A stretch of DNA of 64,000 bases from a virus, in IMG/VR virus record IMGVR_UViG_3300037189_024364, positions 106,319 through 170,318 of that record; one strand, given 5' to 3'. The notes beneath the pieces are model-generated. The model saw nothing but the letters and a program-made list of their open reading frames with translations, did no database searches and had not been told where the DNA came from. The position numbers were made by a program, and so were the translations under genes. Below are positions 14,063 to 44,293 of this stretch, piece after piece. How positions within the stretch are numbered: the stretch's first letter is position 1; each line of letters opens with the position of its first letter.

Positions 14063-14090
14063 TTGACACCCTGTTCCACCGTGCTATAAT
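14063..14090 (+). promoter_or_regulatory. sigma70-type promoter with palindrome
   Basis: TTGACA, 16 bp, TATAAT. CCCTGTTCC (14069-14077) is complementary to GGAACAGGG (14099-14107), which overlaps the ribosome site of the next gene. Confidence 0.85.
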
Positions 14091-14119
14091 CACCACACGG
14101 AACAGGGAGCTAGATTGCA

Positions 14120-14347
14120 ATGGACAAGATCACTGGCATGCCGGCCTGGATCAACGCGGTGCGCAGGGACGACAAGGTGGGTGTTGGGTCCTGCAGCGTG
14201 ATCGACGAGTGCTACACCGACGACGAGCTGCGGGCAGCGCTGACGCGGGACGGCATCCGTGGCAAGATCGAAAGCGTGCGCTGGGCGCGCAGGATCGATC
14301 GCAGCTATCGCGAGCGTGAGCGGGAAGCCCGCAGCGAGATCTTCTGA
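14120..14347 (+). CDS. small hypothetical protein (75 aa)
   Basis: 75 aa, GGGAG 10 nt before ATG 14120. N-terminal part WINAVRRDDKVGVGSCS, then an acidic patch and a very basic C-terminus (RRIDRSYREREREARSE). No family recognised. Confidence 0.65.
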   Translation: MDKITGMPAWINAVRRDDKVGVGSCSVIDECYTDDELRAALTRDGIRGKIESVRWARRIDRSYREREREARSEIF

Positions 14348-14357
14348 GGAATGTTGG

Positions 14358-14386
14358 TTGACACCGCAGGGCCGGCATGCTATGTT
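14358..14386 (+). promoter_or_regulatory. sigma70-type promoter with palindrome
   Basis: TTGACA, 17 bp, TATGTT. Arms GCAGGGCC (14366-14373) and GGCCCTGC (14387-14394) flank the -10. Confidence 0.85.
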
Positions 14387-14411
14387 GGCCCTGCAACCGG
14401 GAGACGACACC

Positions 14412-14549
14412 ATGGACACTCTGATGGAAATCCTCGCTGAGCCGCTGATCCTGCTGGGCTTCGTGGTGCTGCTGCTGGGTGCCACCAGCTTGGTCACACG
14501 CATCATGGACGGCACCTGGAACATCATCGATCCGGATCTGCGGCGATGA
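14412..14549 (+). CDS. small membrane protein (45 aa)
   Basis: 45 aa from ATG 14412, starts MDTLMEILAEPLILLGF. One membrane helix (PLILLGFVVLLLGATSL) and a hydrophilic C-terminus. Overlaps the next gene by 4 nt (ATGA). Not recognised. Confidence 0.6.
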   Translation: MDTLMEILAEPLILLGFVVLLLGATSLVTRIMDGTWNIIDPDLRR

Positions 14550-14968
14550 TGCGGTTGTGCCTGATCGCGGCGTTGGTGCTGATCGCTGGGCCAGCGTGGG
14601 GTCTGCCCGGGGACGGCGTCTATCGTGGAACCATGGCCTGCGGCACCAGCCTGCCGCATCCCACCACCGGCCTGCGCCATCCGGGATGGAGCCGACAGGG
14701 CTTGACGCTGACCATCACCAACGGGTCCCTGCGAGGCGATAGCAGCGGTCAGCACCGATCGGGCGTGCCGTGGGCGGAAACGTGGAACGGTGCGGTCAGG
14801 GACCAGCGCGTGTCGGTGCTGGCACAGGGGCAGGACTCGCGCAACGATCCGTGGTTCTACACCATGACCGGTGAGGTTCCCACCACGCCGGAGTTGGTAT
14901 TGCATGGAGCCATGTATGTGCTGAACCAGCGGCACAGGGTTTGCTGGTTCCGCGGGCAGCGGATCTAA
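14546..14968 (+). CDS. secreted or periplasmic protein (140 aa)
   Basis: 140 aa. Signal peptide MMRLCLIAALVLIAGPAWG with a likely cut near residue 19. The mature part contains one Cys near each end (MACGTS and HRVCWF), probably a disulfide, and looks beta-rich (LTLTITNGSLRG). Coupled to the preceding membrane peptide. Not recognised. Confidence 0.65.
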   Translation: MMRLCLIAALVLIAGPAWGLPGDGVYRGTMACGTSLPHPTTGLRHPGWSRQGLTLTITNGSLRGDSSGQHRSGVPWAETWNGAVRDQRVSVLAQGQDSRNDPWFYTMTGEVPTTPELVLHGAMYVLNQRHRVCWFRGQRI

Positions 14969-14981
14969 CCGAGGAAATCGG

Positions 14982-15010
14982 TTGACGGTGGAGGGCCGCG
15001 GTGCTATGTT
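14982..15010 (+). promoter_or_regulatory. sigma70-type promoter
   Basis: TTGACG, 17 bp, TATGTT; drives the 15039 gene. Confidence 0.75.
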
Positions 15011-15038
15011 CATCATACGGAACAGGGAGCACGCGGTG

Positions 15039-15245
15039 ATGCAAGACATGGTGACCTTTCAAACGATCCTGGTGCCCAGCAAGGAAACCCCCAAGGCGTG
15101 GATGATCTGGGGCGGCACCTATGTGCCCAAGAGCCAAGCAACGGTGGTGAAGACCGGCACCACCAGCAGGGCCAGCCGGGGACGGCAGATAGCCGTTGAC
15201 ATCGTTGACATCACCATGCCGCGCTGGCTCAACGAAAGGATGTGA
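15039..15245 (+). CDS. small hypothetical protein (68 aa)
   Basis: 68 aa from ATG 15039 (GGGAG 11 nt upstream; GTG 15036 is possible). Beta-rich, basic (VPKSQATVVKTGTTSR). No motif recognised. Followed 4 nt later by the 15250 gene. Confidence 0.6.
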   Translation: MQDMVTFQTILVPSKETPKAWMIWGGTYVPKSQATVVKTGTTSRASRGRQIAVDIVDITMPRWLNERM

Positions 15246-15249
15246 TGCA

Positions 15250-15441
15250 ATGATGACGTGGACCCTAACATTCGTCATCGTGGCCGTGATGCAGGGCCAG
15301 CCGGTGCGGCAGGAGACCTCGGTGCAGAACCTCACCGGGATCGAGCACTGTGCCAGGCTGGTGCGGGATTACCAAGCACGCCTCAGGCACGGTGCTCGCA
15401 TCGTGCAGCCCCGCTGCGAGCAGGTGGGATATCGCACCTAG
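15250..15441 (+). CDS. small secreted or membrane-anchored protein (63 aa)
   Basis: 63 aa. Hydrophobic N-terminus MMTWTLTFVIVAVMQG, then a segment with two Cys (EHCARLVRD, QPRCEQV). The layout matches the 29136-29372 protein (hydrophobic start, short segment, Cys, Ala-rich helix, Cys), so the two are probably paralogs. Function unknown. Confidence 0.6.
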   Translation: MMTWTLTFVIVAVMQGQPVRQETSVQNLTGIEHCARLVRDYQARLRHGARIVQPRCEQVGYRT

Positions 15442-15457
15442 CACCGCTGATCTGGGG

Positions 15458-15486
15458 TTGACACCGCCGCAGTCGCGTGCTAGCAT
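15458..15486 (+). promoter_or_regulatory. sigma70-type promoter (leaderless mRNA)
   Basis: TTGACA, 17 bp, TAGCAT; ATG 15493 lies at the expected transcription start. Confidence 0.7.
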
Positions 15487-15492
15487 CAGCAC

Positions 15493-15924
15493 ATGACGAT
15501 AGACCACAACAAGCTAGTGCAAGCGGCCAACCGAGCTGGCAACACCCTGGCAGCGGTGTTCCACCACCTGGCCCTTTTTGCCATCGGTGCCACCACGGTG
15601 TGGGCCGCGGCGATGACCTTCGTTGGCCTGCTGGACAAGAGCCACGCCACCATCGCCGACATCCTCCTCTTGTTCATCTACCTCGAGATCGGGGCCATGG
15701 TGGGCATCTACTTCCGCACCAACCACATGCCGGTGCGGTTTTTGCTTTACATCGCCATCACCGCGCTGACCCGCCACATGGTGGACACGGTGAGCCACAT
15801 ACCGGTCAACACCAACGAGATGCTGGCGGTGGCTGGTGCCACGCTGGTCATGGCCATCAGCGTGCTGATCGTGCGGTTCACCTCGTGGCGGTTCCCGGCC
15901 AATCGGGATCATGATCCCGGCTAG
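15493..15924 (+). CDS. psiE: PsiE-family membrane protein
   Basis: 143 aa with four hydrophobic segments. It carries the family core FIYLEIGAMVGIYFR and PVRFLLYIAITALTRH, which I recognise as PsiE (phosphate-starvation-inducible E). The molecular function of PsiE is not known; in enteric bacteria the gene responds to phosphate and cAMP control. Length matches bacterial homologs (about 135 aa). The mRNA is predicted to be leaderless. A phage copy may relate to phosphate stress during infection (inference). Confidence 0.8.
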   Translation: MTIDHNKLVQAANRAGNTLAAVFHHLALFAIGATTVWAAAMTFVGLLDKSHATIADILLLFIYLEIGAMVGIYFRTNHMPVRFLLYIAITALTRHMVDTVSHIPVNTNEMLAVAGATLVMAISVLIVRFTSWRFPANRDHDPG

Positions 15925-15942
15925 GATCCGGCAAAAAATCGG

Positions 15943-15970
15943 TTGACACCCGCAGGCAACCTGCTATAAT
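15943..15970 (+). promoter_or_regulatory. sigma70-type promoter
   Basis: TTGACA, 16 bp, TATAAT; drives the lipoprotein gene. Confidence 0.85.
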
Positions 15971-16005
15971 CATCGCATAGACGCTGGAACTAGAGGGCTT
16001 CGAAA

Positions 16006-16272
16006 ATGAAGAAGATCATCGCCGTTGTTGCCGTGTTGCTGACCACCGCCTGCACTGATCCCTACGGCAGGGTCGATCCCCTGGCCACGGGCCTGGCGGT
16101 CGGTGCTGGTGCGCTGGCCGTGGGTGCGCTGGGCTACGCTGCCGGCCAGAACTCCGCTCCACGCTACCACAACCATTATGCCGCTCCACGCTACCACAGC
16201 TCCTACGGCAGCAATCCCCCCTACGCCGTTCCCCGCCACTACCACGCTCCCCGCCACGGCTACTATCGCTGA
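16006..16272 (+). CDS. small lipoprotein with His/Tyr-rich tail
   Basis: 88 aa. Signal peptide MKKIIAVVAVLLTTAC with a lipobox (LTTAC, lipid-modified Cys16), then a Gly/Ala-rich hydrophobic stretch resembling a glycine-zipper (VGAGALAVGALGYAAG), then a His/Tyr/Pro/Arg-rich tail with repeated APRYH. Predicted to sit at the outer or inner membrane surface. GAGGG upstream of ATG 16006. It may be a host-derived envelope gene. Confidence 0.7.
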   Translation: MKKIIAVVAVLLTTACTDPYGRVDPLATGLAVGAGALAVGALGYAAGQNSAPRYHNHYAAPRYHSSYGSNPPYAVPRHYHAPRHGYYR

Positions 16273-16278
16273 AATCAC

Positions 16279-16307
16279 TTGGCACGGGGCAGTCTCCGTG
16301 CTATGTT
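16279..16307 (+). promoter_or_regulatory. sigma70-type promoter
   Basis: TTGGCA, 17 bp, TATGTT. GCACGG and CCGTGC pair inside the spacer. Confidence 0.65.
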
Positions 16308-16344
16308 GTGATCATGGGGATGCGCAACGCACACGGAGGCCAGC

Positions 16345-16602
16345 ATGCGGACCAACACTCCTCGCTTTGAGCACGACTGCCTGCGTCCCGGCTGCTGCCG
16401 CTATGCTGGCAGGACGCTGAACTGCGATGTTTATGCCTACGGCAGCATGCTGGACGAGACCGGCATGATCATGCGCCGCAGCGACGATGGTCCCGACTAC
16501 AGTTCCTGGCCGGCCCTGCGCTATGCGGAGATGGCTGCGGCCGAGGACGCCGAAGTGTTCCATGCTGTGCAGCTGGTCAACACCCTGTTGGAAAGCAGTT
16601 GA
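16345..16602 (+). CDS. Cys-rich small protein (85 aa)
   Basis: 85 aa, CGGAGG 6 nt before ATG 16345. The N-terminus has CLRPGCCRY and a later Cys (LNCDVY), a possible metal site; the C-terminal third is a helix (EDAEVFHAVQLVNTLL). Not recognised. Confidence 0.6.
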   Translation: MRTNTPRFEHDCLRPGCCRYAGRTLNCDVYAYGSMLDETGMIMRRSDDGPDYSSWPALRYAEMAAAEDAEVFHAVQLVNTLLESS

Positions 16603-16626
16603 CACGGCCGGTAGACCTGCTATAAT
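16599..16626 (+). promoter_or_regulatory. sigma70-type promoter
   Basis: TTGACA, 16 bp, TATAAT. The -35 begins in the last codons of the 16345 gene. Confidence 0.8.
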
Positions 16627-16653
16627 GCCCACACAGCAAAGGGAGACGGTGAC

Positions 16654-16875
16654 ATGGTCGAGAAGGTGACGAAGTGGGCAGCATATGGCCGGCTGTTCGA
16701 CAGCGAGGCCGATGCCGTCAACCACGAGCGTAAGCAGGATCTCATCACCAAGATCACCGAGTTCCTCTACATGCGTAACATCGACCACGACACCGCCGAG
16801 GACACCGCCCGGATCATCAGCGAGAACCTGGGCTGGTTCCGCACGGTGCTGGACGCAGCGGCAGGAAAAGGTTGA
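16654..16875 (+). CDS. small helical protein (73 aa)
   Basis: 73 aa, GGGAG upstream of ATG 16654. Charged and helical (SEADAVNHERKQDLI, TAEDTARIISENLG). No known motif. Followed by the 16883 gene after 7 nt. Confidence 0.65.
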   Translation: MVEKVTKWAAYGRLFDSEADAVNHERKQDLITKITEFLYMRNIDHDTAEDTARIISENLGWFRTVLDAAAGKG

Positions 16876-16882
16876 CGTAAAC

Positions 16883-17050
16883 ATGACCGTGGCAGAATTG
16901 ATCCAGCTCTTGCAGAAGATGCCGCAGGACGCCGTGGTGGTGCGACAGGGCGACGAATACAAGGATGACGAGCGATACCTCGTGGAGGTCAAGCATCGCC
17001 CCCAGCTGGTGCTGGGCATGTTGTGTGCGCCCAGCGTGATCTTGCGTTGA
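16883..17050 (+). CDS. small phage protein (55 aa)
   Basis: 55 aa from ATG 16883. Starts MTVAELIQLLQKMPQDAVVV, a pattern common at the start of short phage proteins (x-ELI-x-x-L-x-x-x-P-x-D-A-x-V). The rest is DEYKDDERYLVEV. Function unknown. Confidence 0.6.
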   Translation: MTVAELIQLLQKMPQDAVVVRQGDEYKDDERYLVEVKHRPQLVLGMLCAPSVILR

Positions 17051-17061
17051 TGGAAAAGTGG

Positions 17062-17090
17062 TTGACGCCCTGATCCAATCCTGCTACGTT
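17062..17090 (+). promoter_or_regulatory. sigma70-type promoter
   Basis: TTGACG, 17 bp, TACGTT; drives the 17117 gene. Confidence 0.75.
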
Positions 17091-17116
17091 GCCCGGGCAA
17101 GCAAGGAGCAACTACC

Positions 17117-17641
17117 ATGCGTGATGAGGACACCGTTTACTGGGTCGGTGACGTTGATGATGGCAGCCACGAGGGCTACTCCACGTCGAGGATCACCCTC
17201 TTGCTGGGCACCGAGGTCATGGAAGTGCCCGGCGTGATGATCATGGAAAACGATTTCGACATGGTGCAGGGGATGTGGGAGGAAAACCTCGAGCAGGTTG
17301 AAGCCGGCGAGGAGGGCTATGCGCTGAGGCAGGTTACCGTGGAAGAAGCCAACAGGCTCTACGCAGGGCGCTTTTATCTGCACGTTGAGGACGAGGCCCG
17401 CAACGCTGGTCACGCTGCCTACCACGCCGAGGTTGAATACGGCGACAACCCCCACGTTGAGGACAGCGAGGAACACTGGGACTGGAGCACGGGCTGGGAA
17501 CGGGCCTACGCCGAGGACAACGGCCGGGACTACGACTCCGAGGAGGATGATCGCCAGGAGCGGAGGCAGTACCGCGCGGATCTCGCTGCCAGCAAGGCCA
17601 CGCTTGCACGCTGGTACCACGAGGAGCTGGCACTGGCCTAA
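17117..17641 (+). CDS. acidic protein (174 aa)
   Basis: 174 aa, AAGGAG 9 nt before ATG 17117. Very acidic throughout (RDEDTVYWVGDVDDGSHEG, DYDSEEDDRQERR). The N-terminal 90 residues look globular with a beta start; the C-terminal half is charged and helical. Acidic phage early proteins sometimes mimic DNA, but nothing specific supports that here. Confidence 0.65.
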   Translation: MRDEDTVYWVGDVDDGSHEGYSTSRITLLLGTEVMEVPGVMIMENDFDMVQGMWEENLEQVEAGEEGYALRQVTVEEANRLYAGRFYLHVEDEARNAGHAAYHAEVEYGDNPHVEDSEEHWDWSTGWERAYAEDNGRDYDSEEDDRQERRQYRADLAASKATLARWYHEELALA

Positions 17642-17647
17642 AACCGG

Positions 17648-17676
17648 TTGACACTCTCACCAAATGCCGCTAGTGT
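17648..17676 (+). promoter_or_regulatory. sigma70-type promoter
   Basis: TTGACA, 17 bp, TAGTGT; drives the 17705 gene. Confidence 0.7.
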
Positions 17677-17704
17677 CCCTAAGCTAACAAGGAGCAAGCA
17701 CAAC

Positions 17705-18031
17705 ATGTATTACAATCTCTGCATGTCCGCCAACCAAATCGCCCGCTGCAACCGCGCGCTGCCCAGCACGCACCACCTCCGCAACACCCAGATCACCCGC
17801 ACCTGGAACGACATTACCACCCAAGAGGACGTGGTGTTGCTCACCGCCGAGGGCATCCACACCGTCATCGCTGCGCTGCGTGCCAACCCCGAGAGCACCG
17901 ACCGCTACCGCGACGAGGACTTTGAGAGCATGGATATCGAACAGCTCAACCTCGCTGACATTGACACCACGCTGGAACTGGTGCTGGAGGATGCGCCCAG
18001 CGAGAACATGTTGCATGGGGTGTGCATCTAG
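17705..18031 (+). CDS. hypothetical protein (108 aa)
   Basis: 108 aa from ATG 17705 (AAGGAG upstream). Starts MYYNLCMSANQIARCNRA; the C-terminal half is acidic with repeated DIDTTLELVLEDAP. No domain recognised. The last gene before a noncoding stretch with a dispersed element and a small-RNA candidate. Confidence 0.65.
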   Translation: MYYNLCMSANQIARCNRALPSTHHLRNTQITRTWNDITTQEDVVLLTAEGIHTVIAALRANPESTDRYRDEDFESMDIEQLNLADIDTTLELVLEDAPSENMLHGVCI

Positions 18032-18042
18032 CACCCCACTAG

Positions 18043-18071
18043 GGCGGTTTTAACGCCGCTACACGGGGGTC
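18043..18071 (+). repeat. dispersed intergenic element, copy 2
   Basis: Contains GCGGTTTTAACGCCGCTACA followed by CGGGGGTC. Confidence 0.75.
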
Positions 18072-18077
18072 AAGCAC

Positions 18078-18105
18078 CAGGGCCGCTACCACTACAGCGG
18101 CCCTG
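18078..18105 (+). other. 10-bp hairpin
   Basis: CAGGGCCGCT (18078-18087) pairs with AGCGGCCCTG (18096-18105). Part of the 18032-18349 gap, which also holds a dispersed element, a small-RNA candidate and a terminator. Confidence 0.5.
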
Positions 18106-18159
18106 CCGTCCCAGTGCTACAGCGCCGTCTACGACTCCGCTTGCGTTGTGTTTTTTCGC

Positions 18160-18254
18160 TTGACGCTGCTGCTAGGCGTGCTATTATACGCGCATAAGGC
18201 AGCGAGACACCGGGAGGCTGTCGAGCCCTGACCCCATTGTTGCGCTGGCAAAAC
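18160..18254 (+). ncRNA. 95-bp promoter-RNA unit, copy 1
   Basis: TTGACG, 16 bp, TATTAT, then the conserved block GGCAGCGAGACACCGGGAGG and a small 3' hairpin around 18239-18254. Same length and layout as copies at 19305, 24660, 34962, 45276 and 45530. No start codon in the open frame, so read as a small RNA of about 60 nt. Confidence 0.55.
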
Positions 18255-18303
18255 GATCCGTCGCCGGGCGGCCGGCCGTCGCTGCATAATAGCACAAAAA
18301 CAG

Positions 18304-18338
18304 CACTAGCGCAAGCGTTCTTTTTGCTTGCGCTAGTG
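18304..18338 (-). terminator. intrinsic terminator of the 18350-18628 gene
   Basis: Perfect 13-bp stem (18304-18316 with 18326-18338) with a U/A-rich loop. On the - strand it is followed by a T-run, so it should end the - strand transcript. Confidence 0.65.
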
Positions 18339-18349
18339 CGTGTTGCGTG

Positions 18350-18628
18350 CTATGCTTCCAGCAGTTCCACCGCCAGCAGCTCCAGCTCGTCGCCCGCCAC
18401 CGCCAGCCCAGTGTTCAGCTCAAGCCCGTCATGCGTTGTGTAAAACGTGCCTTCGCCCTCAGCGTCCTCCTCGTAAAAGCCCTGCGCCAAGCACTCAGCG
18501 TCATCCGTTGCGTCAGCGTAAACAAACCATTCGCCGTCGCTTGCCTCGCCCACAATGTCCAGCACGCGCCCATTGCTATGCACATAGCGCACGCCCATGT
18601 CAACCACTTCCAGCGTCACCTTCGTCAT
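18350..18628 (-). CDS. acidic protein (92 aa), - strand
   Basis: 92 aa from ATG 18628, chosen by its ribosome site (GGAGCAAGCGACG) and promoter. Starts MTKVTLEVVDMGVRYVHSN. Acidic, with a beta-strand N-terminus and the stretch YEEDAEGEGTFYTTHDG. One of only three - strand genes in the early region, all next to copies of the 95-bp RNA unit. Not recognised. Confidence 0.7.
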   Translation of the reverse strand: MTKVTLEVVDMGVRYVHSNGRVLDIVGEASDGEWFVYADATDDAECLAQGFYEEDAEGEGTFYTTHDGLELNTGLAVAGDELELLAVELLEA

Positions 18629-18661
18629 CGTCGCTTGCTCCATGTTTGCTGCAACATCAGC

Positions 18662-18690
18662 GTTATAGCACTGCCAGTCCAGCAATGCAA
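18662..18690 (-). promoter_or_regulatory. sigma70-type promoter (- strand)
   Basis: TTGCAT, 17 bp, TATAAC on the - strand. The -35 lies inside the right half of the terminator hairpin 18677-18717, as the - strand reads it. Confidence 0.7.
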
Positions 18691-18717
18691 GCGTTTTGTT
18701 TGCTTGCATTGCTGGAC
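18677..18717 (-). terminator. hairpin ending the 18732-19082 gene
   Basis: Perfect 16-bp stem (18677-18692 with 18702-18717), 9-nt U/A-rich loop. It doubles as the -35 region for the next - strand gene. Confidence 0.6.
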
Positions 18718-18731
18718 GTTTTGTGCTAGCC

Positions 18732-19082
18732 CTACTTGCGCAGCTTCACCAAGCCCAGCTCCACGCCCGTCTGTCGCAGCGCAGCCAGCGTTGCCCTGTC
18801 CTTGCCCATCAGCACCACCTTGTCCCAGCCCATGCCGCCGTCCCTGTAAAGCAGCACCGCCTTGTCGCCCTCCTCGTAAACGCTCCAGCCAAAGCCAATA
18901 GTCGCCGTGCATTGCACATAGCCGCCCTTGCAGTCGTTCTCTGCCAGCCCGTGCTGCTGCGCCAGCAGCGCCACCTGCTCGCGTGCATTGTCGCGCCGCA
19001 GCACATAGCTCTTGTGCTTGCCGTATTCTGCCTTAAGCGCAACAACCGTGTTATCATAGTCCTTATACGTCTGCGTCAACAT
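18732..19082 (-). CDS. hypothetical protein (116 aa), - strand
   Basis: 116 aa from ATG 19082 (GGAGCAAGCAAC upstream). Starts MLTQTYKDYDNTVVAL; a helical first half, then VQCTATIGFGWSVYEEGD and a basic C-terminus (RQTGVELGLVKLRK). Longer upstream starts are excluded by the promoter, which overlaps them. Not recognised. Confidence 0.7.
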   Translation of the reverse strand: MLTQTYKDYDNTVVALKAEYGKHKSYVLRRDNAREQVALLAQQHGLAENDCKGGYVQCTATIGFGWSVYEEGDKAVLLYRDGGMGWDKVVLMGKDRATLAALRQTGVELGLVKLRK

Positions 19083-19961: not shown

Positions 19962-19990
19962 TTGACGGTGCTGCTGCCCGCTGCTATGGT
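19962..19990 (+). promoter_or_regulatory. sigma70-type promoter with palindrome
   Basis: TTGACG, 17 bp, TATGGT. Arms TGCTGCCCGC (19972-19981) and GCGGGCAGCA (19993-20002) are perfectly complementary. Confidence 0.8.
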
Positions 19991-20018
19991 GTGCGGGCAG
20001 CAAACGGAGCAAGCAAAC

Positions 20019-20455: not shown

Positions 20456-20471
20456 GGTCCCCGCGGGTGTT
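20456..20471 (+). repeat. variant of the 16-bp GGTCCCCGCAGGGGTT motif
   Basis: GGTCCCCGCGGGTGTT, joined directly to the TTGACG of the next promoter, the same position as at 26711, 27244, 36890 and 37391. Confidence 0.5.
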
Positions 20472-20498
20472 GACGCGGCCGCAGGGCCATGCTATCCT
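20470..20498 (+). promoter_or_regulatory. sigma70-type promoter with palindrome
   Basis: TTGACG, 17 bp, TATCCT. Arms GCCGCAGG (20478-20485) and CCTGCGGC (20496-20503) are complementary; the right arm includes the end of the -10. Confidence 0.75.
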
Positions 20499-20521
20499 GC
20501 GGCTCAGCAGGGAGGCGACCA

Positions 20522-24773: not shown

Positions 24774-24816
24774 CACCCAGCAGAGCAAGCGATCTTTTGC
24801 CTTGCTCTGCTGGGTG
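24774..24816 (-). terminator. hairpin ending the 24824-25075 gene
   Basis: Perfect 16-bp stem (24774-24789 with 24801-24816), 11-nt loop, directly after the - strand stop. Same design as the hairpins at 18304 and 18677. Confidence 0.6.
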
Positions 24817-26710: not shown

Positions 26711-26726
26711 GGTCCCCGCAGGGGTT
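26711..26726 (+). repeat. 16-bp motif GGTCCCCGCAGGGGTT
   Basis: Exact copy fused to the -35 of the promoter at 26725. It also occurs at 27244 (one change), 36890 and 37391, and in reverse orientation eight times between 46487 and 47956. Confidence 0.8.
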
Positions 26727-26753
26727 GACAGCAACACCAACCCCTGCTATGTT
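26725..26753 (+). promoter_or_regulatory. sigma70-type promoter with palindrome
   Basis: TTGACA, 17 bp, TATGTT. GCAGGGGTTG (26718-26727) is complementary to CAACCCCTGC (26738-26747); here the arms flank the -35 instead of the -10. Confidence 0.8.
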
Positions 26754-27706: not shown

Positions 27707-27734
27707 TTGACACGGCACGGGCATGTGCTACAAT
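27707..27734 (+). promoter_or_regulatory. sigma70-type promoter with palindrome
   Basis: TTGACA, 16 bp, TACAAT. Arms GCACGGGCA (27715-27723) and TGCCCGTGC (27734-27742). Confidence 0.9.
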
Positions 27735-27760
27735 GCCCGTGCAAGCAAGGGAACATGCAA

Positions 27761-28086: not shown

Positions 28087-28114
28087 TTGACACGGCAGGG
28101 ACATGTGCTACAAT
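28087..28114 (+). promoter_or_regulatory. sigma70-type promoter with palindrome
   Basis: TTGACA, 16 bp, TACAAT. Arms GCAGGGACA (28095-28103) and TGTCCCTGC (28114-28122). Confidence 0.9.
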
Positions 28115-28141
28115 GTCCCTGCAACAAAGGAGCACGCTAGG

Positions 28142-30491: not shown

Positions 30492-30519
30492 TTGACCCTG
30501 CAGGGGCCGGTGCTATAAT
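30492..30519 (+). promoter_or_regulatory. sigma70-type promoter with palindrome
   Basis: TTGACC, 16 bp, TATAAT. Arms GCAGGGGC (30500-30507) and GCCCCTGC (30520-30527). Confidence 0.9.
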
Positions 30520-30548
30520 GCCCCTGCAAGCAACGAAGGAACACGCCG

Positions 30549-31163: not shown

Positions 31164-31191
31164 TTGACACGGCAGGGGCCGGTGCTATAAT
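31164..31191 (+). promoter_or_regulatory. sigma70-type promoter with palindrome
   Basis: TTGACA, 16 bp, TATAAT. Arms GCAGGGGC (31172-31179) and GCCCCTGC (31192-31199). Confidence 0.9.
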
Positions 31192-31215
31192 GCCCCTGCA
31201 AGCGAGGAACAAGCA

Positions 31216-32225: not shown

Positions 32226-32253
32226 TTGACGCCCGTGCAGGGCCTGCTATAAT
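32226..32253 (+). promoter_or_regulatory. sigma70-type promoter with palindrome
   Basis: TTGACG, 16 bp, TATAAT. Arms GCCCGTGCA (32231-32239) and TGCACGGGC (32253-32261). Confidence 0.9.
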
Positions 32254-32281
32254 GCACGGGCAAGCAAGGGAGCGTGCAGCG

Positions 32282-32651: not shown

Positions 32652-32685
32652 GGGCCCATAGCTCAATGGTTAGAGCTATGGGCCC
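32652..32685 (+). other. tRNA-half-like hairpin
   Basis: Perfect 13-bp stem (32652-32664 with 32673-32685) and an 8-nt loop AATGGTTA. The first 25 nt read like a tRNA 5' half: a GGGCCCA acceptor strand, TA, then a D-arm with GCTC/GAGC. No anticodon arm follows. It sits 9 nt before the tRNA and may be a tRNA remnant or a processing element. Confidence 0.5.
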
Positions 32686-32871: not shown

Positions 32872-32899
32872 TTGACAACGGTGCAGGGCCTGCTACAAT
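32872..32899 (+). promoter_or_regulatory. sigma70-type promoter with palindrome
   Basis: TTGACA, 16 bp, TACAAT. Arms GCAGGGCC (32883-32890) and GGCCCTGC (32900-32907). Confidence 0.9.
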
Positions 32900-32923
32900 G
32901 GCCCTGCAAGCAAAGGAGCGCAC

Positions 32924-36889: not shown

Positions 36890-36905
36890 GGTCCCCGCAG
36901 GGGTT
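36890..36905 (+). repeat. 16-bp motif GGTCCCCGCAGGGGTT
   Basis: Exact copy overlapping the start of the promoter at 36904. Confidence 0.8.
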
Positions 36906-36931
36906 GACGCAAGCTCCGCCCGTGCTATAAT
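36904..36931 (+). promoter_or_regulatory. sigma70-type promoter with palindrome
   Basis: TTGACG, 16 bp, TATAAT. Arms GCCCGTGC (36918-36925) and GCACGGGC (36932-36939) enclose exactly the -10 hexamer. Confidence 0.9.
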
Positions 36932-36967
36932 GCACGGGCAACAGCAACACAGCAACGGAACACAGCA

Positions 36968-37390: not shown

Positions 37391-37406
37391 GGTCCCCGCA
37401 GGGGTT
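37391..37406 (+). repeat. 16-bp motif GGTCCCCGCAGGGGTT
   Basis: Exact copy overlapping the start of the promoter at 37405. Confidence 0.8.
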
Positions 37407-37432
37407 GACACGGCCCGGGCATGTGCTATAAT
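37405..37432 (+). promoter_or_regulatory. sigma70-type promoter with palindrome
   Basis: TTGACA, 16 bp, TATAAT. Arms GCCCGGGCA (37413-37421) and TGCCCGGGC (37432-37440). Confidence 0.9.
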
Positions 37433-37458
37433 GCCCGGGCAACAAAGGAGTTGATGCG

Positions 37459-37786: not shown

Positions 37787-37814
37787 TTGACAGAGAATCA
37801 ACCCGTGCTATAAT
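37787..37814 (+). promoter_or_regulatory. sigma70-type promoter with palindrome
   Basis: TTGACA, 16 bp, TATAAT. Arms ACCCGTGC (37801-37808) and GCACGGGT (37815-37822); compared with 36904 both outer bases changed together. Confidence 0.9.
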
Positions 37815-37852
37815 GCACGGGTAAGCGCAACACAAACACAGACGAGGCCAAC

Positions 37853-38638: not shown

Positions 38639-38666
38639 TTGACACGGTTGCAGGGCCTAGTATAAT
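38639..38666 (+). promoter_or_regulatory. sigma70-type promoter with palindrome
   Basis: TTGACA, 16 bp, TATAAT. Arms GTTGCAGGG (38647-38655) and CCCTGCAAC (38669-38677). Confidence 0.9.
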
Positions 38667-38692
38667 GACCCTGCAACAACGGAGCAGACAAG

Positions 38693-39584: not shown

Positions 39585-39590
39585 CGTCAA

Positions 39591-39619
39591 TTGACACACT
39601 CGGAGTGGCATGCTATGTT
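39591..39619 (+). promoter_or_regulatory. sigma70-type promoter
   Basis: TTGACA, 17 bp, TATGTT; drives the 39646 gene. Confidence 0.8.
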
Positions 39620-39645
39620 GCTCCTGCAACGAAGGGAACACGCAA

Positions 39646-39879
39646 ATGGTCTATCGTGAATACACTCGCAAGCTGATGGAAGCCATCCAGGAAGGCGTGC
39701 TCGATCGCGACACGGTGATCAATGCTGCCCTGAGCTATCTCAGCGAGGCCGAGGTCAAGGACATGTGCGAGGCCAATGGCTTCTTCGAAGACGAGGAGGA
39801 GGAGGCTGAAGAAGAGGCAGAGAGCGAGGAGGATCTCCTCAACAATCCCAACTATGTGGGCAGCCGACATCACTACTAA
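39646..39879 (+). CDS. acidic-tail protein (77 aa)
   Basis: 77 aa, AAGGGAAC upstream of ATG 39646. The N-terminal 48 residues look like a small helical domain (ALSYLSEAEVKDMCEANG), followed by an almost pure Glu/Asp run (EDEEEEAEEEAESEEDL). The layout suggests a protein that binds a basic partner. Not recognised. Confidence 0.7.
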   Translation: MVYREYTRKLMEAIQEGVLDRDTVINAALSYLSEAEVKDMCEANGFFEDEEEEAEEEAESEEDLLNNPNYVGSRHHY

Positions 39880-39885
39880 TTTCGG

Positions 39886-39913
39886 TTGACGTCAACGCAA
39901 TGCCTGCTACACT
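39886..39913 (+). promoter_or_regulatory. sigma70-type promoter with palindrome
   Basis: TTGACG, 16 bp, TACACT. TGCCTGC and GCAGGCA enclose the -10. Confidence 0.75.
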
Positions 39914-39939
39914 GCGCAGGCAACAAGGGAATCAGCAAC

Positions 39940-40209
39940 ATGTGCAAGCGTGAGCCTTTGAAGAACGTGATCCTCGGCGTGGTTGATGACTGGATCGGCC
40001 AATGCAACGACGACATCAACCACAGTCTCGAGCAGTTGCTCGAGCCAAATGTCGAGCGTAATCTGCGTGAAATTTACGATCGCAAGATCCAGCTGACGCG
40101 ATTCAGGCTGGCAATCGGCCAGGGTATCCACACCGGCAGCAAGGCCTACAGCCGAGAAATGCTCAGCGAGGTGGTAGACTTCATCTTTGAAATGGATGCC
40201 AGCATATAA
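39940..40209 (+). CDS. hypothetical protein (89 aa)
   Basis: 89 aa from ATG 39940. MCKREPLKNVILGVVDDW, LEQLLEPNVERNLREIYD; helical. Not recognised. Confidence 0.65.
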   Translation: MCKREPLKNVILGVVDDWIGQCNDDINHSLEQLLEPNVERNLREIYDRKIQLTRFRLAIGQGIHTGSKAYSREMLSEVVDFIFEMDASI

Positions 40210-40224
40210 CCCGATACCTCGGGG

Positions 40225-40343
40225 TTGACAGGGTACCGGGAGCATGCTATGTTCCCGGTACGACGTTGCACCAGCCGATCGGCATCGCAGCACACGCCAT
40301 GCGCGGACCGAGTCCTGACGCCGACGTTGCAACAGCGCAACGA
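40225..40343 (+). ncRNA. diverged relative of the 95-bp promoter-RNA unit
   Basis: Promoter TTGACA, 17 bp, TATGTT with perfect arms GTACCGGGA (40233-40241) and TCCCGGTAC (40253-40261). Downstream, 25 nt from 40307 align without gaps to the 3' part of the six main copies (CCTGAC, then GTTGC), followed by hairpin CGTTGC/GCAACG (40325-40342). No convincing gene follows. Confidence 0.4.
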
Positions 40344-40374
40344 TAAATTCTCCGGCCATTTCGAAAGATTTTGG

Positions 40375-40402
40375 TTGACGGTAATGGTAGCCGTGCTACA
40401 AT
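40375..40402 (+). promoter_or_regulatory. sigma70-type promoter
   Basis: TTGACG, 16 bp, TACAAT; drives the 40430 gene. Confidence 0.85.
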
Positions 40403-40429
40403 GCCCTGGCAACGAAGGGAGCATGCAAC

Positions 40430-40669
40430 ATGCGTTATACCACGAAGCTGGTCGAGGATGTCAACCGCGTTCGCCGGCTGTTCAACGAGACCCTGCTGGA
40501 TGCCAGCAATCTCAGCCGGGGTGATGTCAGCACGCTGCTGGATCAGATCGAAACCAAGCTGAGCCCGGAGAATCTCACCTGTGACGGTGAGCTGAGCCGT
40601 GCCAAGGTGGCCCAGCGCCGCAAGATGCTGGAGGGTGCGCGCAGCGAGCTGGAAAAGATCGCTGCTTGA
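40430..40669 (+). CDS. helical protein (79 aa)
   Basis: 79 aa, GGGAG upstream of ATG 40430. MRYTTKLVEDVNRVRRLFN, SRGDVSTLLDQIETKLSP; charged and helical throughout, probably a coiled coil. Not recognised. Confidence 0.65.
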   Translation: MRYTTKLVEDVNRVRRLFNETLLDASNLSRGDVSTLLDQIETKLSPENLTCDGELSRAKVAQRRKMLEGARSELEKIAA

Positions 40670-40681
40670 TGAACTTTTCGG

Positions 40682-40756
40682 TAGACGCGCACCAAAACGG
40701 TGCTAACATACCGATGTTGGGCAAGGTTGGTGCTGAAAACAAAAGGCAGCACCAAC
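40682..40756 (+). other. promoter plus 10-bp hairpin, possible small RNA
   Basis: TAGACG, 16 bp, TAACAT, then GTTGGTGCTG (40726-40735) paired with CAGCACCAAC (40747-40756) around an A-rich loop. A 22-codon frame starts at 40714 but lacks a ribosome site. Likely a short noncoding transcript between two genes. Confidence 0.4.
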
Positions 40757-40778
40757 TGAGCAAGACGAAACTTTTTGG

Positions 40779-40806
40779 TTGACGCGGCGTAGCATGGTGC
40801 TACAAT
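40779..40806 (+). promoter_or_regulatory. sigma70-type promoter
   Basis: TTGACG, 16 bp, TACAAT, with an unusually long leader (about 60 nt) before the 40875 gene. Confidence 0.8.
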
Positions 40807-40874
40807 GCGGGTGTTGAAACAGAGCGCTAGGCGAGCATTGGGCAAGCAAGCGCAACGGACAAGGGACTGAACAC

Positions 40875-41210
40875 ATGGAAAAGACCTTTACCATCGCTGG
40901 CCTCACCACCCTGAACGGTGTGAAGACCTTCCGCTTTGCCAACGGCAAGCTGAACCTGCGCGTGAACATGCTCAATCACTTCGGGCACACGGACATCAAC
41001 CTCGTGGAGCTGCCCAAGGCGATGACCAAGGTGCAGGCCACCACCTGGGTGCTGCAGAACATCAAGGGTGCCAAGAGCGCGGTGATCCCCACCCGCGCCG
41101 CGGACAAGACCGTGAAGAACGACGTGTTGCTGGCGGCGGAGAAGAAGGCCGCTGCGGTGGCCAAGGCGCGTGCCACCCGCGAGGCCAAGAAGGTCGCCGT
41201 GGAGGCCTAA
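40875..41210 (+). CDS. FRFANG family protein, paralog 3
   Basis: 111 aa, AAGGGAC upstream of ATG 40875. FTIAGLTTLNGVKTFRFANG and FGHTDINLVELPKAM are the family core; ends in a basic Ala-rich helix. Next to paralog 4, so a likely tandem duplication. Confidence 0.75.
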   Translation: MEKTFTIAGLTTLNGVKTFRFANGKLNLRVNMLNHFGHTDINLVELPKAMTKVQATTWVLQNIKGAKSAVIPTRAADKTVKNDVLLAAEKKAAAVAKARATREAKKVAVEA

Positions 41211-41224
41211 GGCCAAAAAAACAC

Positions 41225-41252
41225 TTGACAGGTCCACATGCTGTGCTAGCGT
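41225..41252 (+). promoter_or_regulatory. sigma70-type promoter
   Basis: TTGACA, 16 bp, TAGCGT; drives the 41283 gene. Confidence 0.7.
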
Positions 41253-41282
41253 GCGGACACGAGAAACAGAGAAAGGATGCAT

Positions 41283-41798
41283 ATGAGCAAGCTTTTTACC
41301 ATCGCTGGTACCAGCACGCTGAATGGGACCAACACCTTCCGCTTTGCCACCGGTAAGGTCAACGTGCGAGTTGCCAAGCTCAAGAGGCACGGGCACACGG
41401 ACGTGGATCTCATCCAGCTGCCTGGCTCGATGAGCAAGGAGGACGCCGTGGCGTTCCTGGTCAACCAAGGGCGTGATGCGGTGATCCCCACCAATCGCAA
41501 GACCGGCCCGGTGGAGCTGAGCGACGAGCAGAAGGCCGCTGCTGCTGAGGCTGCCCGCAAGGCGGAGTTCACGCGGCGCATGGCGGAAGCGCGTGCTGCC
41601 AAGCGTGCTGCCCGTGTTGCTGCGCAGGACGAGAACTATCTCGCCGCGCTGACGGGAGGTGAGCAGGTCGAGGTGCCCGATGCGGACACCACGCCGGCGG
41701 TGGTCACCGCCGAGGACGAGGCTGCTGCGGTGGCTGCTGCCGACGAGCTGCTGGCGGTGTTGGGTGCTGACGCTGAGCAAGAAGCAAACGAGGCCTAA
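41283..41798 (+). CDS. FRFANG family protein, paralog 4
   Basis: 171 aa from ATG 41283 (AAAGGA 5 nt upstream; ATG 41277 is in frame). FTIAGTSTLNGTNTFRFATG, HGHTDVDLIQLPGSM form the shared domain. The C-terminal 90 residues are Ala/Glu-rich helix. Followed by a classic terminator at 41876. Confidence 0.75.
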   Translation: MSKLFTIAGTSTLNGTNTFRFATGKVNVRVAKLKRHGHTDVDLIQLPGSMSKEDAVAFLVNQGRDAVIPTNRKTGPVELSDEQKAAAAEAARKAEFTRRMAEARAAKRAARVAAQDENYLAALTGGEQVEVPDADTTPAVVTAEDEAAAVAAADELLAVLGADAEQEANEA

Positions 41799-41875
41799 GG
41801 GCCGAGGTGGTGCAGGCAGGGTGATGAACCCATAAGCCCTGCGATGCGCGTTTTGGTTCATTTTGTGAAACTTGG

Positions 41876-41907
41876 CCCACCGGGAAGTTCGTCCCGGTGG
41901 GTTTTTT
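41876..41907 (+). terminator. rho-independent terminator
   Basis: CCCACCGGG (41876-41884) and CCCGGTGGG (41893-41901), 8-nt loop, then six T. The best textbook terminator in the window. Confidence 0.9.
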
Positions 41908-41908
41908 C

Positions 41909-42023
41909 TTGACCAATGGTGCTGACCATGCTATGCATGGATGATGTCGAACGGGTGATCGCCAGCTCGACCAGTGGGCATGCCCAGCCGAATCCTGACC
42001 AAATCGTTGCAAGACCAAGATGA
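41909..42023 (+). ncRNA. diverged relative of the 95-bp promoter-RNA unit
   Basis: TTGACC, 17 bp, TATGCA; from 41987 GCCGAATCCTGACC and GTTGC align without gaps to the other copies. A 28-codon frame from ATG 41937 spans it, without a ribosome site, so a leaderless peptide is an alternative. Confidence 0.35.
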
Positions 42024-42088
42024 CCGCATAGAGCGTGCTACAAGCGCTTCCGTCCCTGTCCGCGGTCATGGTAGCGGCCATGGTGCTA

Positions 42089-42117
42089 GACCCCGGTGTA
42101 GGGTGCTTAAAACCGCG
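42089..42117 (-). repeat. dispersed intergenic element, reverse diverged copy
   Basis: GACCCCGGTGTAGGGTGCTT followed by AAAACCGCG. Confidence 0.55.
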
Positions 42118-42180
42118 TTTAACGCCGCGGTTTGGTTCCGGGCTGCGGCAAAAAGATCGAGATCGACCCGATATTTTTGG

Positions 42181-42208
42181 TTGACCCACGGGCAATTGAT
42201 GCTAGTAT
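42181..42208 (+). promoter_or_regulatory. sigma70-type promoter
   Basis: TTGACC, 16 bp, TAGTAT; drives the 42240 gene. Confidence 0.7.
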
Positions 42209-42239
42209 CCCGGATAACAAGAGCGAAGAGGACGACGGT

Positions 42240-42929
42240 ATGCAACTATTGACCACCAACAATACCAAGATCCTCAAGGGCACGGGTCGCGGCTACATGA
42301 CCTGCATCCTGCATCTTGCTCCGGCTGACAGCTCGGGCAACGAGGTTTGTCCCAAGCGAACGCCGGGCTGCACCGCTGCCTGCTTGAACCATGCGGGTCG
42401 CGGGCAGATGAAAAAGGTGCAGGCGGGACGGCTTCGCAAGACCCGGCTTTACTTCGAGGATCGCGGGCTGTTCATGAGCCAGCTGATCTGGGACATCAAC
42501 GCCGGCATCCGCAAGGCCGAGCGCGAGGATGCCACGCCGTGCTTTCGCCTCAATGGCACCAGTGACATTCCCTGGGAACGCATCCGCGTCAAGGGGCAGA
42601 ACGTCTTCGAGATGTTCCCCAGCATCCAGTTCTACGACTACACCAAGATGCTGAACCGCCGGGTTGCGCAATACTCCAACTACCACCTCACCTTCAGCAA
42701 GGCCGATGGCAACGACCGGGACGTGGCGAAAGCCATTGCAGCGGGCATGAACGTGGCGGTGGTGTTTGGCGGCGAGTTCCCCGAGACCTATCTCGGGCTG
42801 CCGGTGATCAGCGCTGACGAGGACGACCTGCGCTTCCTGGATCCGAAGAACGTGATCCTCGGGCTCAAGCCCAAGGGGCGGCGTGCCCGGCGTGATACCA
42901 CGGGCTTCGTGGTAGAAGGAAACGGTTGA
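42240..42929 (+). CDS. GP88-family phage protein
   Basis: 229 aa, GAGGAC upstream of ATG 42240. It matches the phage GP88 family (gene product 88, first named in mycobacteriophages): YMTCILHLAPADSSGNEVCP, TPGCTAACLNHAGRG, RLRKTRLYFEDRGLFMSQL, RLNGTSDIPWERI and IQFYDYTKMLNRR with NYHLTFSKAD. Four conserved Cys in the first 50 residues may bind metal. To my knowledge the function is unknown. Length agrees with the family. Confidence 0.85.
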   Translation: MQLLTTNNTKILKGTGRGYMTCILHLAPADSSGNEVCPKRTPGCTAACLNHAGRGQMKKVQAGRLRKTRLYFEDRGLFMSQLIWDINAGIRKAEREDATPCFRLNGTSDIPWERIRVKGQNVFEMFPSIQFYDYTKMLNRRVAQYSNYHLTFSKADGNDRDVAKAIAAGMNVAVVFGGEFPETYLGLPVISADEDDLRFLDPKNVILGLKPKGRRARRDTTGFVVEGNG

Positions 42930-42953
42930 CGCAGCCGGCGTCCATGCTATAAT
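42926..42953 (+). promoter_or_regulatory. sigma70-type promoter
   Basis: TTGACG, 16 bp, TATAAT; the -35 overlaps the stop of the GP88-like gene. Confidence 0.85.
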
Positions 42954-42980
42954 GGTCCTGCAAGCAAAGGAGCAAGCAAG

Positions 42981-43136
42981 ATGTCCAAACCCAGCAAGGT
43001 GGTCTACGTGACCTTTGCGCTGATCTGTACCGGGGATGCCGATCTGGATGACGTGGTCGAGAACCTCGACTACACCATCGATCATCCCGACGTCATCGAA
43101 ACCGAAATGCGCGATGTGCGCAAGCTGGAGGACTGA
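42981..43136 (+). CDS. small acidic protein (51 aa)
   Basis: 51 aa, AAAGGAG upstream of ATG 42981. MSKPSKVVYVTFALICTGDA, then DLDDVVENLDY; a beta strand followed by an acidic helix. Similar to short phage proteins with a strand-helix-strand pattern. Frame read from the sequence. Confidence 0.6.
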   Translation: MSKPSKVVYVTFALICTGDADLDDVVENLDYTIDHPDVIETEMRDVRKLED

Positions 43137-43139
43137 ACC

Positions 43140-43331
43140 ATGGATCGCAAAGAACTCCTCACCGAGATCCTTTTCCATCTCGAGACGGCCCTGTACCTCA
43201 TGGAGACCACCGCGGCCAAGCCCGACGACGAGGACGTGGTTTGGTTTGCCGTGAACGAGGCCCAGAGCGTGGCCGAAGAACGGCTGAACGAGATCCTCAT
43301 GGACGCGATCCCCGCGGTGCCGCAGAACTAG
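43140..43331 (+). CDS. small helical protein (63 aa)
   Basis: 63 aa from ATG 43140, 3 nt after the previous stop, so co-transcribed. Acidic helix-rich (RKELLTEILFHLETALYLM). Not recognised. Confidence 0.65.
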   Translation: MDRKELLTEILFHLETALYLMETTAAKPDDEDVVWFAVNEAQSVAEERLNEILMDAIPAVPQN

Positions 43332-43344
43332 GCTGGATTTTGGT

Positions 43345-43372
43345 TGACGCGGAGCACAACGGCGCTACAATG
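43345..43372 (+). promoter_or_regulatory. sigma70-type promoter
   Basis: TTGACG, 16 bp, TACAAT, flanked by GCGC on both sides of the -10. Confidence 0.8.
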
Positions 43373-43401
43373 CGCGAACTAACAGCAGCAAGGACAACGA
43401 C

Positions 43402-44229
43402 ATGAACATGATTGCAACCGCCCAGCGTTCCAGCGAGAACGAAGCGATGGCGGAGATCGATCTGCGCATCCGCAACACCTTTGCCGTGCTGGGCAAGGTC
43501 GCCCAGGGCATCATCGACGGCAACATCACCGCGGTGATCACCAGCGGTGCTGCTGGCTGCGGCAAGACCTACACGCTGGAGAAGGCCCTGCAAAAGGCCG
43601 AAAGCGACGGGCTGGTGAACTTCCAAAGCGTCAAGGGTGCCATGAGTGCCATTGGGCTGTACCGCCAGCTCTGGGAGTGCCGTGAGCCGGGCAACGTGCT
43701 GGTGATCGACGACTGCGACGGCATCTTCGGCGACCTGGACGCGCTGAACCTGCTGAAGGCCGCGCTGGACACGGGCAAGAGCCGCAAGGTCCACTGGAAC
43801 AAGGAAAGCCGCGTGCTGGACGACGAGGGCATCGATCGGAGCTTTGAGTTCGAGGGTGCCGTGGTGTTCATCACCAACATCGACTTCACCGCTGAGATCG
43901 AAGCGGACAAGAAGATGTCGCCGCACTACAAGGCGCTGATGAGCCGCTGCATGTATGTGGACCTCGGCATCCACAGCAAGCGTGAGATCCTCGTGCGCGT
44001 GGGACAGGTGGTGTTCAGCCAGAGCTTCCTCAAGGAGAACGGCATCACCAAGGCACAGAGCCAGGAGATGATGCGGTGGCTGGCCCCCAACCTCAGCCGC
44101 GTGCGCGTGCTGAGCATCCGAACGGTGCTCCAGCTGGCCAGCTTGGTCAAGACCGACGAGGACTGGAAGAGCATGGCCGAGTCCATCATGCTCAAGCCCA
44201 AGCGTTACGTTGAAGCCCAGGAGGGCTAA
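43402..44229 (+). CDS. AAA-type ATPase
   Basis: 275 aa, AAGGA upstream of ATG 43402. Walker A SGAAGCGKT (residues 48-56, Lys55), Walker B NVLVIDDCD (98-106), a sensor-like VVFITNIDF and an Arg-rich helix before VLSIRTVLQL that could hold the arginine finger. The overall order fits an AAA+ ATPase of the type found in T4-like and other large phages. The target, possibly a DNA-repair or host complex, is unknown. Confidence 0.85.
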   Translation: MNMIATAQRSSENEAMAEIDLRIRNTFAVLGKVAQGIIDGNITAVITSGAAGCGKTYTLEKALQKAESDGLVNFQSVKGAMSAIGLYRQLWECREPGNVLVIDDCDGIFGDLDALNLLKAALDTGKSRKVHWNKESRVLDDEGIDRSFEFEGAVVFITNIDFTAEIEADKKMSPHYKALMSRCMYVDLGIHSKREILVRVGQVVFSQSFLKENGITKAQSQEMMRWLAPNLSRVRVLSIRTVLQLASLVKTDEDWKSMAESIMLKPKRYVEAQEG

Positions 44230-44239
44230 CATCGATCGG

Positions 44240-44267
44240 TTGACACCGCCCGGGCATGTGTTATAGT
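44240..44267 (+). promoter_or_regulatory. sigma70-type promoter with palindrome
   Basis: TTGACA, 16 bp, TATAGT. Arms GCCCGGGCA (44248-44256) and TGCCCGGGC (44267-44275). Confidence 0.85.
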
Positions 44268-44293
44268 GCCCGGGCAACACAGGAGAGCCGGCA

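Follow-up and report, generated by a model that had tools for sequence, protein, structure and literature searches.

Why should a host-type promoter hold its -10 hexamer between two sequences that are exact reverse complements of each other? The question is raised by a 64-kb stretch of viral DNA (the window), which forms the right part of the 170-kb IMG/VR virus record IMGVR_UViG_3300037189_024364 and carries an array of small genes with promoters of this type. An earlier interpretation of the letters alone (the sequence-only reading) had proposed that the constraint acts on DNA, with the hairpin promoters of phage N4 as precedent. The analysis presented here indicates instead that these elements are probably composite early promoters with an embedded intercistronic RNA stem-loop, of the kind known from T4-like phages as PeSLs (promoter-early stem-loops), in which an early promoter is combined with a stem-loop (PMC4503421).

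Complementary arms in a quarter of the array promoters

The array occupies roughly 13-46 kb of the window and consists of small co-directional genes served by 64 promoters of the form TTGAC-N16/17-TANNNT, most of them with a TG extension. The set was picked from 13.0-46.2 kb by the presence of TTGAC, a spacing of 16 or 17 and TANNNT, blind to any arms. The promoters are sigma70-like and putatively early, a label that derives from promoter type and from relatives; strength and timing are predicted from sequence. A ribosome site and start codon lie downstream of 55 of the 64, including 15 of the 17 that carry arms. A 452.8-kb record (G001) has the same promoters, and its fetched 20.8-kb stretch is identical to positions 33402-54226 of the window. 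This record contains a match to the gp23 capsid protein (PF07068, E 1.1e-94), which identifies the phage as a T4-like jumbo phage and places the array in the type of genome from which PeSLs are known. When 6 kb of the array was compared with a phage collection for distant DNA similarity, one 73-base match was returned, to an unannotated record, and a profile search with PF00940 gave no match, its controls giving none either.

The sequence-only reading had claimed exact reverse-complement arms around the -10 in at least 15 promoters, and all 16 of the pairs that it named are indeed exact. In a strict test, in which the spacer was matched against the 26 nt that follow the -10, 16/64 promoters had arms of at least 7 bp and 14/64 arms of at least 8 bp, as against means of 2.0 and 0.9 and maxima of 8 and 5 when the right halves were re-dealt among the promoters (10,000 permutations). 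When the arms are allowed to touch the -10, 17/64 promoters are armed (at least 7 bp) compared with about one in shuffles that keep the -35 and the -10. Complementarity is thus well above that of shuffled controls, and promoter and stem-loop occupy one short intergenic cassette, as they do in a PeSL. It should be stressed that this applies to a subset, about a quarter of the promoters, and that arms are not a general feature of the early promoters, the other 47 showing no residual pairing (mean fold z -0.2). The armed promoters are distributed over the array in 8 runs. Over the remaining 106 kb of the record a slightly wider rule picked up 17 promoter-like matches, 3 of them with arms of at least 7 bp. 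Hairpins abound throughout this phage, the whole window containing 78 inverted repeats of at least 8 bp compared with 10-18 in five local shuffles.

The arms differ in sequence while their pairing is kept, and covariation is seen among the pairs, as had been claimed. In a sub-family of four promoters (27707, 28087, 37405 and 44240, each named by the first position of its interval in Table 1) three of the ten stem pairs have changed on both sides with pairing retained, and one pair is T.G. The loops of the 17 armed promoters span the 6-21 nt originally reported, with the -10 in or near the loop; in seven (20470, 27707, 28087, 32226, 37405, 40225 and 44240) an arm overlaps the hexamer by 1-3 bases. 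The predicted energies of the corresponding RNA hairpins range from -11.8 to -22.6 kcal/mol.

The same design in cultured and metagenomic relatives

Promoter sets for cultured T4-like phages were derived from motif rules instead of mapped starts; in the four-phage count each promoter was counted once, the T4 sequence was without positions 100001-120000 and that of KVP40 without its last 4.8 kb. Under a simple motif rule, the -10 lies in the loop of a stem of at least 7 bp in 6/20 promoters of T4, 4/29 of Aeh1, 2/16 of KVP40 and 7/43 of RB49, against 0.7-1.1 in shuffles, KVP40 being weak when taken alone (2 versus 0.67 shuffled). In T4 (NC_000866) the promoters dmd 20611, ipII 65798, e.7 70358 and 30.7 129917 have their -10 inside or partly inside perfect repeats with arms of 10, 14, 7 and 8 bp, respectively.

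In RB49, which we take to be a phage studied in the 2010 PeSL paper, 30 promoters were defined by motif and gene-start rule. The hairpin lies in the spacer in 10 of these, around the -10 in 6 and in other places in 3, and is absent from 11; for the spacer and -10-loop positions the shuffles yield about 0.1 or less each. The layout of the window is thus found in RB49 (6/30), together with hairpins wholly within the -35/-10 spacer (10/30), 5' of the -35 or after the -10. Among orthologous promoters of Krischvirus the entire stem may be replaced without loss of pairing (GGGGATC/GATCCCC in one, GGGGAG/CTCCCC in another), and one RB49 -10-loop arm pair is unchanged in 12/12 Krischvirus genomes examined, of 58 matching records.

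Metagenomic relatives were located with arm-blind promoter patterns and ten contig sets were taken further, several of them picked partly because arms had already been seen there, so that their arm rates are biased upward. The clearest is G006, in which arms of at least 8 bp occur in 6/40 promoters and have sequences unlike those of the window; in the strict test at 7 bp or more, 6 were observed compared with a permuted mean of 0.9 and a maximum of 5. Arms of changed sequence, which the sequence-only reading had suggested looking for in related phages, are seen both here and in the Krischvirus orthologues. G009 has the same six armed promoters as G006, which were counted once. A single armed promoter (arms of at least 8 bp) occurs in each of G002, G007 and G014, one is common to G012, G013 and G006, and none was found at 8 bp in G010, G005 or G004; outside G006 and G009 no single contig is clearly above its own permutations. 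The promoter in G014 (L069, 8070) has a 12-bp stem with the -10 in the loop and a Shine-Dalgarno sequence inside the right arm, and, judged from sequence, this stem is likely to act as a translational mask in read-through RNA.

Arms accompany a nearby upstream stop codon

The sequence-only reading had argued that the left arm is untranscribed, so that the constraint must act on DNA. This does not fit the position of the upstream genes. A co-directional stop codon lies less than 25 nt before the -35 in 15/17 armed promoters, compared with 28/47 unarmed ones, and with a stop so close, read-through RNA from the upstream gene would hold both arms. Counted the other way with the same gene caller, arms occur in 15/43 window promoters at short gaps versus 2/21 otherwise (p 0.037). 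In T4, Aeh1, KVP40 and RB49 a stop at 25 nt or less is found at 16/19 armed versus 35/89 unarmed promoters, and in the combined data at 31/36 versus 63/136 (Fisher p 2e-5, the gene rules differing between the two sets). From the coordinates, the hairpin of a close armed promoter would begin about 12-31 nt 3' of the upstream stop in the read-through RNA. Such a distance after a stop is a usual place for terminators and for stems that protect 3' ends.

At wider gaps hairpins are found outside the promoter. A separate perfect hairpin lies upstream of 13 of the 19 unarmed window promoters with long or undefined gaps, against 1.9 in shuffles; one of the 13 hairpins consists of the arms of promoter 40225. 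In RB49 an upstream terminator with a T-run accompanies 0/19 promoters with an embedded hairpin versus 4/13 without (p 0.02), the gap being 43-52 nt in the 3 of these 4 for which it was measurable and -4 to 16 nt in the 18/19 hairpin promoters with a measured gap. This dependence on the gap, together with the hairpins at wider gaps, is as expected of an intercistronic RNA hairpin in a tight promoter and unlike a DNA promoter structure.

In the arrangement that we propose, many small genes would each have their own, presumably strong, host-type sigma70 promoter, placed a few bases 3' of the previous stop codon. Transcripts that read through from the upstream gene would carry both arms, which could pair to give a hairpin whose loop contains the -10. 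Those initiated at the promoter itself would begin near the right arm and, having no left arm, would keep their leader and ribosome site unpaired. The RNA hairpin would then be the selected form. It may keep the units apart in that the message from upstream is ended or trimmed there, through a pause, termination or a barrier to exonucleases, and may mask translation in the rare cases where an arm includes the ribosome site.

Several observations weigh against an RNA stem-loop of this kind or limit its reach. With a first, cruder gene caller the gap test in the window gave 12/17 versus 24/47 (p 0.25); as the window result depends on the caller, it is the cultured phages that provide independent support. 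Among the 43 window promoters directly behind a gene, 28 have no arms, so the element is not required at every boundary. The RB49 contrast falls to 1/19 versus 4/13 (p 0.13) when T-run hairpins after the -10 are included. A classical intrinsic terminator was considered as a candidate, but although the hairpin is present a T-run follows none of the 17 in the window, which indicates that these are not canonical intrinsic terminators and makes classical intrinsic termination unlikely. The preference for G.U over A.C in the stems that is expected for RNA is weak, at 3 versus 1 in each of two counts, and the pairs flanking the stems point in opposite directions (outer 9 G.T and 18 A.C, inner 22 and 4, in a loose promoter set). 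The excess consists of perfect stems, forms with one mismatch being few: among 189 unique promoters (the window plus eight contig sets, score cut-off 8) there are 23 perfect best stems versus 1.9 permuted, and 7 stems with a single mismatch versus 5.9 expected. Finally, promoters 19962 and 40225, both armed, have no downstream gene start by the rule applied to the array. The sense and antisense strands of the promoter region fold alike (means for armed promoters, -20.2 and -19.8 kcal/mol), and the comparison of upstream-hairpin energy between armed and unarmed promoters gave p 0.12.

Inventory of the armed promoters and other elements of the array

The armed sites are collected in Table 1. As a second class of short hairpin, GGTCCCCGC boxes lie directly 5' of the -35 at 20470, 26725, 36904 and 37405 (CCCCGCAGGGG three times and CCCCGCGGG once). 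Promoter 26725 also has a 10-bp inverted repeat, 26718-26747, that reaches from the -35, which is partly within the left arm, to the base before the -10. By eye, across 13-46 kb, a C-rich spacer and CCAA before the TGC extension are frequent in unarmed promoters, and many armed ones have G-rich left arms.

Table 1. Armed promoters and one promoter-like site in the window (coordinates in window positions).
Feature	Interval	Strand	-10	Left arm	Right arm	Stem (bp)	Loop (nt)	Remark
Armed promoter-like site	3324..3371	+	3347-3352	3332-3342	3361-3371	11	18	18th site, lying outside the array; -10 TAAGTT
Armed promoter	14063..14107	+	14085-14090	14069-14077	14099-14107	9	21	-35 at 14063
Armed promoter	14358..14394	+	14381-14386	14366-14373	14387-14394	8	13	
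Armed promoter	19962..20002	+	19985-19990	19972-19981	19993-20002	10	11	
Armed promoter	20470..20503	+	20493-20498	20478-20485	20496-20503	8	10	Right arm overlaps -10
Armed promoter	27707..27742	+	27729-27734	27715-27724	27733-27742	10	8	
Armed promoter	28087..28122	+	28109-28114	28095-28104	28113-28122	10	8	
Armed promoter	30492..30528	+	30514-30519	30499-30507	30520-30528	9	12	
Armed promoter	31164..31199	+	31186-31191	31172-31179	31192-31199	8	12	
Armed promoter	32226..32261	+	32248-32253	32231-32239	32253-32261	9	13	
Armed promoter	32872..32908	+	32894-32899	32882-32890	32900-32908	9	9	Behind tRNA-Lys gene
Armed promoter	36904..36939	+	36926-36931	36918-36925	36932-36939	8	6	-10 is the whole loop; CCCCGCAGGGG hairpin directly 5' of -35
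Armed promoter	37405..37440	+	37427-37432	37413-37422	37431-37440	10	8	
Armed promoter	37787..37822	+	37809-37814	37801-37808	37815-37822	8	6	-10 is the whole loop
Armed promoter	38639..38677	+	38661-38666	38647-38655	38669-38677	9	13	
Armed promoter	39886..39922	+	39908-39913	39901-39907	39916-39922	7	8	17th, beyond the list of the sequence-only reading
Armed promoter	40225..40261	+	40248-40253	40233-40241	40253-40261	9	11	
Armed promoter	44240..44275	+	44262-44267	44248-44256	44267-44275	9	10	

Six promoter-driven units, at 18160, 19305, 24660, 34962, 45276 and 45530, share some 45-60 nt of the form GGCA[G/A]CGAGACACCGGGAG...GAA...CT...GTTGCG, with variants. Five of the six have no gene start by the rule applied to the array, and some end in a small hairpin; from these features they are possibly a family of small RNAs. 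Rfam gave no match in 13-47 kb except a tRNA. Long perfect hairpins of 14-16 bp with T-rich loops occur at 18303-18339, 18677-18717 and 24774-24816, two of them shortly 3' of such units, and a 13-bp perfect hairpin at 32652-32685, just 5' of the tRNA-Lys gene, resembles by eye a tRNA 5' fragment folded on itself.

Discussion

The perfect Watson-Crick arms, with so few single-mismatch forms, might be taken to point to DNA rather than RNA, and in particular to a cruciform that acts as an off-switch: once host gyrase has introduced supercoils into the injected DNA, extrusion of the arms would deprive the sigma70 promoter of its B-form core and bring early transcription to a halt. The spacer and -10-loop hairpins of RB49 do overlap the promoter core, and the rrnB promoter lost its activity when an N4 hairpin was inserted between its -35 and -10, inhibition of gyrase by novobiocin bringing it back (PMC4496689). 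A cruciform, however, would not be expected to depend on the distance to the upstream stop or to exchange with upstream hairpins and terminators, and loops of 13-21 nt would make extrusion costly. We regard such a switch as unlikely, and give if anything slightly less credence to its generalization, in which sequence-independent repeats across T4-like phages would form a supercoiling-gated off-switch that is on when the DNA is relaxed or newly injected and shut when the hairpin extrudes over the -10. The proposal of the sequence-only reading, an N4-like promoter whose polymerase recognizes the extruded hairpin or a -10 in its loop, is the least likely of the explanations and barely credible. 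The centre of the arms does fall about 4 bases or less from the start of the -10, close to position -11, on which the N4 inverted repeats are centred, and N4 promoters keep pairing at variable stem bases, partly independently of sequence; the N4 precedent is nevertheless not supported, as at rrnB the DNA hairpin silenced a sigma70 promoter (PMC4496689). N4 relies on a different polymerase, its virion RNA polymerase, no domain match to which was found in the 452.8-kb G001 record, which may be incomplete, while the N4 positive control was found at 100%. N4 promoters have a short stem, a 3-nt loop and no sigma70 -35, in contrast with the 6-21-nt loops and near-consensus -35 seen here, and 47/64 promoters of the same type have no arms at all. 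Centring on the -10 would be a consequence of the room left by the -35, the -10 and the ribosome site, and RB49 hairpins occur elsewhere in the promoter, which is incompatible with a promoter that has to hold the -10 in a loop of DNA.

An operator for a dimeric repressor or activator covering the -10 would account for the dyad symmetry around it, and mycobacteriophages of cluster O have an invariant 17-bp dyad that its authors suggested to be a dimer site (PMC4351075). The arms of the window, however, differ widely in sequence and in spacing, and those of relatives are entirely different again. The earlier argument that variable arms speak against a single dimeric operator thus stands, neither a shared half-site nor a fixed spacing being found, and we consider an operator very unlikely. 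Quite unlikely, too, is a mutational by-product, in which near-palindromes are made perfect by template switching as the DNA replicates, the promoters being no more than the sites at which repeats recombine. Such an origin would suit the perfect arms with their all-or-none distribution, the runs into which armed promoters fall and the report that PeSLs mediate gene shuffling (PMC4503421), but it is hard to reconcile with an arm pair kept in every Krischvirus genome examined, with the strong link to upstream gene ends, with 17 armed window promoters where about one is expected and, in part, with the turnover of stem sequence under retained pairing in the Krischvirus orthologues.

A composite early promoter with an embedded RNA stem-loop remains the explanation that we prefer. 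The stem-loop of a PeSL reportedly is an effective transcription terminator. The elements described here resemble PeSLs (Arbiol 2010, Comeau 2014) in that a sigma70 early promoter and a stem-loop form one cassette between small T4-like genes; they differ in that the stems of the window have no T-run and that the embedded ones surround the -10, none being classed as a spacer hairpin. On sequence grounds they may be filed as a T-run-less, -10-in-loop variant of the PeSL. Intrinsic termination would suit them less well than a pause, protection of the 3' end, or Rho-linked termination after which the RNA is trimmed as far as the stem. Among the literature matches listed, which cover titles and the starts of abstracts and do not extend to the texts of Arbiol 2010 and Comeau 2014, there is no description of covarying arms with the -10 in the loop in T4-like early promoters.

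A transcript-dependent stem is known from T4 itself. Longer transcripts of gene e fold, whereas those from the late promoters just 5' of the ribosome site are without the 5' strand; in e, soc and 49 the Shine-Dalgarno sequence or start codon lies in the stem (PMC3014915). The right arm in G014, with its Shine-Dalgarno sequence, is of this form. In the window the Shine-Dalgarno sequence is mostly just after the right arm, and the gene e promoters are late promoters, unlike the early type of the window. Inverted repeats that recur at the starts of many genes are also found as ESAS in cluster K mycobacteriophages and as the TATA-inverted-repeat motif of haloarchaeal HGTV-1 (PMC3203893, PMC3950731). 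Unlike the arms of the window, ESAS half-sites share a consensus (PMC3203893); HGTV-1 is archaeal and its motif is only likened to PeSLs (PMC3950731).

The findings suggest that one stretch of bases may serve both as a promoter and as the hairpin that marks where the preceding gene ends, the -10 forming the loop, and the same design, built from unrelated sequences, recurs in T4, RB49, Aeh1, KVP40 and a giant phage. They also counsel caution, since an inverted repeat around a -10 should not be read automatically as an operator or a DNA-hairpin promoter. Both T4 and RB49 can be grown on laboratory E. coli, so that the association of stem-loops with early promoters is accessible to direct tests.

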